From: an uncultured Gammaproteobacteria bacterium
GTDB lineage: Bacteria; Pseudomonadota; Gammaproteobacteria; GCA-001735895
Length of the DNA stretch: 36,972 bases
Reading direction: 5' to 3'
NCBI GenBank assembly: GCA_937936805.1
Contig: CALDDP010000249.1
Coordinates: forward strand, 1-36,972
The notes under the pieces were generated by a model. The model made no database searches. It had not been told where the DNA came from and saw only the letters and a program-made list of their open reading frames with translations. Made by a program: the position numbers and the translations under genes. This document shows, one piece after another, positions 28,187-28,850 of this stretch. The first letter of the stretch is position 1, and each line of letters begins with the position of its first letter.

Positions 28187-28194
28187 CTGTTGCA

Positions 28195-28240
28195 TCTTCT
28201 CATTTTATTCTCTAAACTGACTGAGAATAAAACGAGAAGA
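28195..28240. promoter_or_regulatory. Large inverted repeat in the lexA promoter (putative non-canonical LexA operator)
   Basis: TCTTCTCATTTTATTCTC - TAAACTGACT - GAGAATAAAACGAGAAGA; arms pair at 17 of 18 positions. Confidence 0.7.
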
Positions 28241-28250
28241 GTTACGACAA

Positions 28251-28850
28251 ATGCTAACTTCACAGGAACAAAAGACACTCCAGTTCATCCGCAATTACCT
28301 CGCCCAATACGGCTATGCACCGAAATTCAAGGAGATCGGCATGGCCATCGGCGTATCGTCGCACGGGACTATCCATCGCTATGTGCAGTCGCTCGAAGAC
28401 AAGGGTTACATCGACCGGGTCAAGGGCAATTCGCGCGGCATGAGCCTCGTGGATTTGCCCCTGGTAAGCCCACCGACAATTCCCCTTGCCGGCAAAATAG
28501 CGGCCGGCTTCCCGATCGAAGCGATCGAGGATCAGCAGGAATTGAATCTTGCCGAAATGTTCATGGGCCCTGAATTGTTCGCCTTGCGCGTTACCGGAGA
28601 TTCGATGATGGACGCCGGTATTCTCGATGAAGACTATGTGATCATTAAAAAACAGCCCGTTGCCAATGATGGGGATATAGTCGTGGCGATGATCGACAAG
28701 GCCGAGGCCACGTTAAAACGCTTTAAGCGCAGGGGTGAGGCTCAAATCGCGTTAATTCCGGAAAACCAGGACATGGAGCCGATGATATACCCCGCTGAAC
28801 GAGTCAGTATTCATGGGGTTCTGGTAGGGCAACTGAGGAACTACAGGTAG
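28251..28850 (+). CDS. lexA: LexA repressor (SOS regulator), divergent DNA-binding helix
   Basis: 199 aa; Ala-Gly cleavage site KIAAGFP, catalytic Ser in VTGDSMMDAGI, catalytic Lys in ATLKRFKRRG, LIPENQDMEPM. Confidence 0.92.
   Translation: MLTSQEQKTLQFIRNYLAQYGYAPKFKEIGMAIGVSSHGTIHRYVQSLEDKGYIDRVKGNSRGMSLVDLPLVSPPTIPLAGKIAAGFPIEAIEDQQELNLAEMFMGPELFALRVTGDSMMDAGILDEDYVIIKKQPVANDGDIVVAMIDKAEATLKRFKRRGEAQIALIPENQDMEPMIYPAERVSIHGVLVGQLRNYR

Follow-up and report, generated by a model that had tools for sequence, protein, structure and literature searches.

The question raised by this locus is what recognises the long inverted repeat in front of a lexA gene, and which other genes the same regulator controls. 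The window, which is the whole stretch of DNA that was analysed (36,972 bp), contains an inverted repeat at 28195-28240 that ends 10 bp upstream of lexA. Its arms, TCTTCTCATTTTATTCTC (28195-28212) and GAGAATAAAACGAGAAGA (28223-28240), are complementary at 17 of 18 positions and are separated by a 10-nt loop, as an earlier sequence-only reading of the region had described. The repeat is unique in the window when 18-nt arms with at most one mismatch and loops of 3-40 nt are searched. Its upstream neighbour, a homologue of selO, is encoded on the same strand as lexA. The repeat is very probably the lexA autoregulatory operator, composed of two inverted direct-repeat LexA boxes, with the same LexA controlling recA, umuDC and at least one integron integrase in the family of the host. 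The features of the locus are listed below.

28190-28195, plus strand: -35 hexamer TTGCAT of the putative promoter, read from the sequence
28196-28212, plus strand: putative LexA box 1, CTTCTCATTTTATTCTC; direct repeat with half-sites TTCTC at 28197-28201 and 28208-28212, 11-bp phase
28213-28218, plus strand: -10 hexamer TAAACT of the same putative promoter, read from the sequence
28213-28222, no strand: gap between the boxes, 10 bp in the window and 7-18 bp in relatives
28223-28239, minus strand: putative LexA box 2, CTTCTCGTTTTATTCTC on the minus strand; inverted relative to box 1, with GAGAA at 28223-28227 and 28234-28238
28234-28241, plus strand: probable Shine-Dalgarno sequence GAGAAGAG, inside box 2 and 9 nt from the ATG
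28251-28850, plus strand: lexA, 199 aa; LexA DNA-binding domain and S24 peptidase, recognition-helix region SSHGTIHRYVQSLEDKGYI

The product of the gene scores 177.9 bits against TIGR00498, above the cut-off of 110.95, and is classed as a LexA repressor on this basis. It contains the domains PF01726 (LexA_DNA_bind) and PF00717 (Peptidase_S24), and the solved structures nearest to it are LexA repressors. Residues A84-A85-G86, S118 and K156 are invariant in the LexA alignment; the Ala-Gly cleavage site (A85-G86) and the Ser/Lys dyad are thus present.

Box 1 (17 bp) exactly fills the 17-bp spacer between the -35 and -10 hexamers. The sequence-only reading had placed TTGCAT at 28190-28195, TAAACT at 28213-28218 and half-sites starting at 28197, 28208, 28223 and 28234, and all of these positions are correct. 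Similar hexamers surround box 1 in most relatives. In the genus of the host, box 1 is exactly 17 bp between TTGCAW and TAAACT-like hexamers. Across the host's family, TTGCAA or TTGCAT occupies the -35 place in 20 of 29 operators and TAAACT the -10 place in 13 of 29. Other genera of the family keep the box without TTGCAW at the -35 place, which indicates that the box is conserved and not the promoter register. Outside the family, box 1 is flanked by TTGAAA or TTGATC and by TATAGT- or TACTAT-like hexamers.

All 20 half-site bases are found with no mismatches upstream of lexA in the host genome and in 17 of the 23 congeners scanned, several of the remainder being without a complete lexA locus; reversed-pattern controls gave no match. 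Box 2 is degenerate in one congener (L126). No CTGT-N8-ACAG sequence with at most one mismatch is found near lexA, around 28190-28250, in agreement with the earlier reading, and an E. coli-type box was rejected for this locus. The earlier proposal of a lexA operator that is unlike that of E. coli and that covers the promoter is supported.

The unit within the repeat can be read from spacing. In the window, TTCTC-N6-TTCTC has two exact matches, both inside the lexA operator, and TTCTC pairs at all remaining spacings between 0 and 12 together yield a single exact match. In a survey of 56 related lexA operators, made with no spacing presupposed, the TTCTC-to-TTCTC distance in the left arm is 11 bp in 46 and the GAGAA-to-GAGAA distance in the right arm is 11 bp in 52. 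The TTCTC-to-GAGAA distance across the centre spreads over many values, and the gap between the arms in relatives is 7, 8, 9, 10, 11 or 12 bp, or 18 bp in one lineage. Because the phase within each arm is nearly invariant while the distance between the boxes varies, the unit is the direct repeat and not TTCTC-N10-GAGAA. The lexA operator is best read as two candidate 17-bp LexA boxes that face each other, each of the form TTCTC-N6-TTCTC. In relatives, the box takes the form GTTCTC-N5-GTTCTC with the same 11-bp phase. The half-sites of the window read CTTC and ATTC, in which the 11-bp phase is kept and the first G of GTTC is lost.

It is very unlikely that the repeat is one extended palindromic site, in which a dimer would read TTCTC-N10-GAGAA across the centre and the outer half-sites would be accessory contacts. 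Palindromes make up the majority of LexA boxes, and the inner TTCTC/GAGAA pair is a perfect inverted repeat with a single occurrence in the 3.35-Mb host genome. However, the variation of the inner gap from 7 to 12 and 18 bp, set against an arm phase that is steady at 11 bp, led to the rejection of this recognition unit, and the sites at recA, umuDC and intI (described below) are single arms without an inverted partner. The sequence-only reading had allowed for two LexA dimers or one extended site. Two LexA sites are retained, but the TTCTC-N10-GAGAA unit is not, since the centre drifts and the other sites are single-armed. As a pattern for scanning genomes, TTCTC-N10-GAGAA is likewise replaced by GTTCTC-N5-GTTCTC, which fits.

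Wherever the recA promoter of a congener could be read (19 of 19), the gene is preceded by the direct repeat GTTCTCTTTATGTTCTC, which lies ahead of a TGTGATAAT-like -10 element. The variants GTTCTCTTTGTGTTCTC and GTTCGCTTTATGTTCTC, which differ by one base, are present in one genome each. The box is found in none of the ten other families whose recA promoters were read. In the genus scan (31 genomes, two or fewer mismatches), there are 80 matches versus 16 for the reversed control. Sixteen of the 80 lie just before umuD in 16 congeners, as determined by comparing box coordinates with umuD coordinates, and a weight-matrix check was carried out. One box, GTTCTCATAATGTTCTC, is located 47 bp before the start of an integron integrase gene (TIGR02249; L238:190-237, G011:C6). 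In this congener, the integron would probably be under SOS control through the new box type. No box is found before dinB in the congeners, and several of their two-mismatch matches, which lie near transposases, within genes or off promoters, are regarded as chance or left undecided. The sequence-only reading had named as a test whether recA and further SOS genes are preceded by a similar motif, and in relatives this is the case (recA, umuDC and intI).

In two congeners (L236 and L237; G005:C25 and G010:C89), boxes of the sequence GTTCTCATAATGTTCTC also immediately precede divergent transposase-like genes. The boxes may mark SOS-linked mobile elements or may be part of the element end.

The host assembly (3.35 Mb, 348 contigs) is 87% complete, and its close relatives with names are uncultured Gammaproteobacteria MAGs. 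Of recA, no more than a 3' fragment is present, and umuD is not found in this 87% complete assembly. Further boxes in the host genome do not rise above chance, with seven matches versus seven in the control at three or fewer mismatches. Since the assembly is without the recA promoter and umuDC, the regulon is deduced from congeners, and the lexA operator is the only part seen in the host itself.

The host genome encodes two LexAs, and an E. coli-type (canonical) LexA is not detected in it. The second LexA (G000:C29:5330-5926; L230) is 31% identical to the window LexA and heads a lexA2-imuA-imuB-dnaE2-like cassette, the genes of which were named by position and sequence. The presence of this second LexA, together with the fact that binding of LexA to the operator is predicted from sequence, could be taken to favour a regulator other than the window LexA as the owner of the operator, but this is highly improbable. 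Ahead of the lexA2 operon lies a conserved palindrome of another kind, ATAACACTGTTGCATACAACGGTGTTAT, with the core GTTG-N4-CAAC. Exact boxes are present at the lexA of the window LexA clade in 15 of 24 sampled genomes outside the genus, near-exact boxes in others, and the whole family has them. The targets are those of the SOS core (lexA, recA, umuDC and intI).

It is extremely improbable that the repeat acts at the RNA level, as a hairpin of the lexA leader that masks the Shine-Dalgarno sequence and controls translation. RNA transcribed from the region is predicted to form a stable fold (-20.4 kcal/mol, z = -5.1), and the Shine-Dalgarno sequence is inside the right arm. With a transcription start a few nucleotides past the -10 hexamer, however, the left arm would be absent from the RNA. 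The complementarity of the spacers does not exceed that of shuffled pairings, either in the family (0.705 versus 0.705) or outside it (0.552 versus 0.522), and before recA and umuDC the half-sites reappear as single arms that have no partner. Spacer positions that do not covary and half-sites that are essentially invariant fit protein-DNA half-sites and not a selected stem, and the hairpin was rejected despite its strong fold. A selO terminator was also rejected, as the repeat is followed by GTTACGACAA rather than a T run and sits on the lexA promoter.

The LexA tree, which is read without a root, contains 92 sequences and has some joins on long branches. The window LexA falls in a clade composed of the host's family, outer genomes and Granulosicoccus (support 100/97), within which the host's family alone has support of 100/98. 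The canonical gammaproteobacterial LexAs group together at 99/97, and the window clade lies across a 96/89 branch from them. The alphaproteobacterial LexAs, a putative label taken from the LexA type (the source genomes belong to the same phylum and another class), are a separate clade (100/99) that shares its side of this branch with the window clade. The window LexA groups neither with these nor with the E. coli-type LexAs. Its recognition-helix region reads SSHGTIHRYVQSLEDKG, and that of outer clade relatives reads S[KR]GT[VI]HRYV[QK][SA]L.

A convergent pair of the form GTTCTC-N5-GTTCTC ... GAGAAC-N5-GAGAAC precedes LexA in Thiohalophilus thiocyanatoxydans and in Chromatiales and Ectothiorhodospiraceae MAGs. 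In Granulosicoccus, the convergent pair is located before the clade lexA and is often degenerate. Most sampled genomes outside Granulosicoccus and the host's family have exact boxes at lexA and almost nowhere else, and the recA promoters of clade members outside the host's family contain no box. The Granulosicoccus genomes have a second, canonical LexA alongside the clade LexA, and in three of them recA is preceded by an E. coli-like site, CTGAAAATATTTACAG or CTGTAACTGTTTACAG. The outer clade therefore keeps the double operator with a recA that has no box, which suggests a takeover of the regulon.

Two further arrangements were observed in these genomes. In Thiohalophilus thiocyanatoxydans (L157:6001-7887), the gene immediately downstream of lexA encodes a Y-family DNA polymerase (PolIV-like), which gives a candidate autoregulated repressor-polymerase pair. 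Similar downstream genes are present in L146, L147, L151, L155, L159 and L162. In three Ectothiorhodospiraceae-like genomes (L282, L286 and L301), recA and a gene that encodes a WYL-domain regulator (PF13280) are oriented divergently. A ACATAGGTGGTAAAA...GTATCACCTA arrangement, with no LexA box, is conserved between the two genes, which suggests that recA control may be independent of LexA in these genomes.

The alphaproteobacterial SOS box is GTTC-N7-GTTC, for example in Caulobacter crescentus (PMC9578287, PMC8565304). The window system resembles it in the direct repeat, the 11-bp phase and the GTTC core (GTTCTC-N5-GTTCTC in relatives), in the S..[GT][IV]HR pattern of the recognition-helix region (SKSGIHRLITALEERG in the alphaproteobacterial LexAs sampled) and in its targets, which are lexA, recA and error-prone polymerases. 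All 16 of the alphaproteobacterial lexA genes sampled have a perfect direct-repeat GAAC/GTTC box upstream. The window system differs in its gammaproteobacterial host, its extended half-site GTTCTC and the separate position of its clade in the LexA tree. The boxes at the window lexA are convergent, whereas the sampled alphaproteobacterial lexA genes have one perfect box and in some cases a second, divergent and mostly degenerate one. The similar helix and similar box would fit shared or convergent recognition. A description of the box as unlike every known LexA box was rejected because it matches GTTC-N7-GTTC with extended half-sites. Searches of the open-access literature turned up no account of direct-repeat LexA boxes in Gammaproteobacteria. 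With caution, what is new here is an alphaproteobacterial-style direct-repeat SOS box in a separate gammaproteobacterial LexA lineage, with a convergent pair at lexA.

The lexA gene of E. coli also has two LexA operators (PMC9210283). Putative double autoregulation at the lexA promoter is thus a shared design with a different site, and the cleavage site and Ser/Lys dyad are conserved. The window LexA belongs to another clade, its half-site differs, and each of its boxes is a direct and not an inverted repeat. The recognition helix of canonical gammaproteobacterial LexA, SPNAAEEHLKAL, is unlike that of the window LexA. Pseudomonas putida and Xanthomonas contain dual LexA systems with separate LexAs and boxes (PMC9578287, PMC3901139). 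The host resembles them in its second LexA, which has its own cassette and palindrome. In contrast to these systems, its main LexA is the non-canonical one that belongs to the direct-repeat type, and a canonical LexA was not found.

The proposed model of binding, dimer geometry, repression and damage induction is built on the boxes, their phase, conservation and positions, the gene context and the LexA domains, all of which were read from sequence. One LexA dimer would occupy each box with both DNA-binding domains pointing the same way, as has been inferred for alphaproteobacterial LexA. Box 1 would lie between the -35 and -10 elements and box 2 over the start region and the Shine-Dalgarno sequence, so that bound LexA would block RNA polymerase. 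After DNA damage, RecA-stimulated self-cleavage at the conserved Ala-Gly would release LexA. At single boxes, the same LexA would act on recA, umuDC and at least one integron integrase in the host's family.

According to a published hypothesis, motifs diverge after lexA duplication, and once the primary lexA has been lost a diverged LexA may regain control of the SOS network (PMC8565304). The contrast between the host's family and the outer clade is best viewed in the light of this scheme. The clade LexA of Granulosicoccus coexists with a canonical LexA and leaves recA unmarked, and the host's family is without a canonical LexA and its recA carries the new box. The recA box may have been gained in the host's family or lost elsewhere. 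A fuller history is offered tentatively and falls somewhat short of probable. A previously undescribed LexA lineage of Gammaproteobacteria would have begun as an autoregulated repressor, in many cases sharing an operon with a Y-family polymerase, and would have had convergent direct-repeat boxes only at its own gene. It would have taken over recA, umuDC and the integron integrase in one marine family after loss of the canonical LexA, and would have reached the alphaproteobacterial-style box independently.

SOS boxes are usually regarded as typical of bacterial classes. In the present case, a gammaproteobacterial lineage has a direct-repeat box of the alphaproteobacterial kind and a LexA clade of its own. 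The clade ranges from a LexA that marks only itself, through one that coexists with a canonical LexA, to one that marks recA, umuDC and intI in a single family. Across this range, takeover of the SOS network by a diverged LexA can be tested directly, and the cultured Thiohalophilus thiocyanatoxydans is among the organisms that allow it. The combination of a fixed 11-bp phase with a gap of varying length between the boxes provides a natural experiment on direct-repeat reading by LexA. In a group of marine Gammaproteobacteria, a little-known LexA lineage seems to govern the response to DNA damage.
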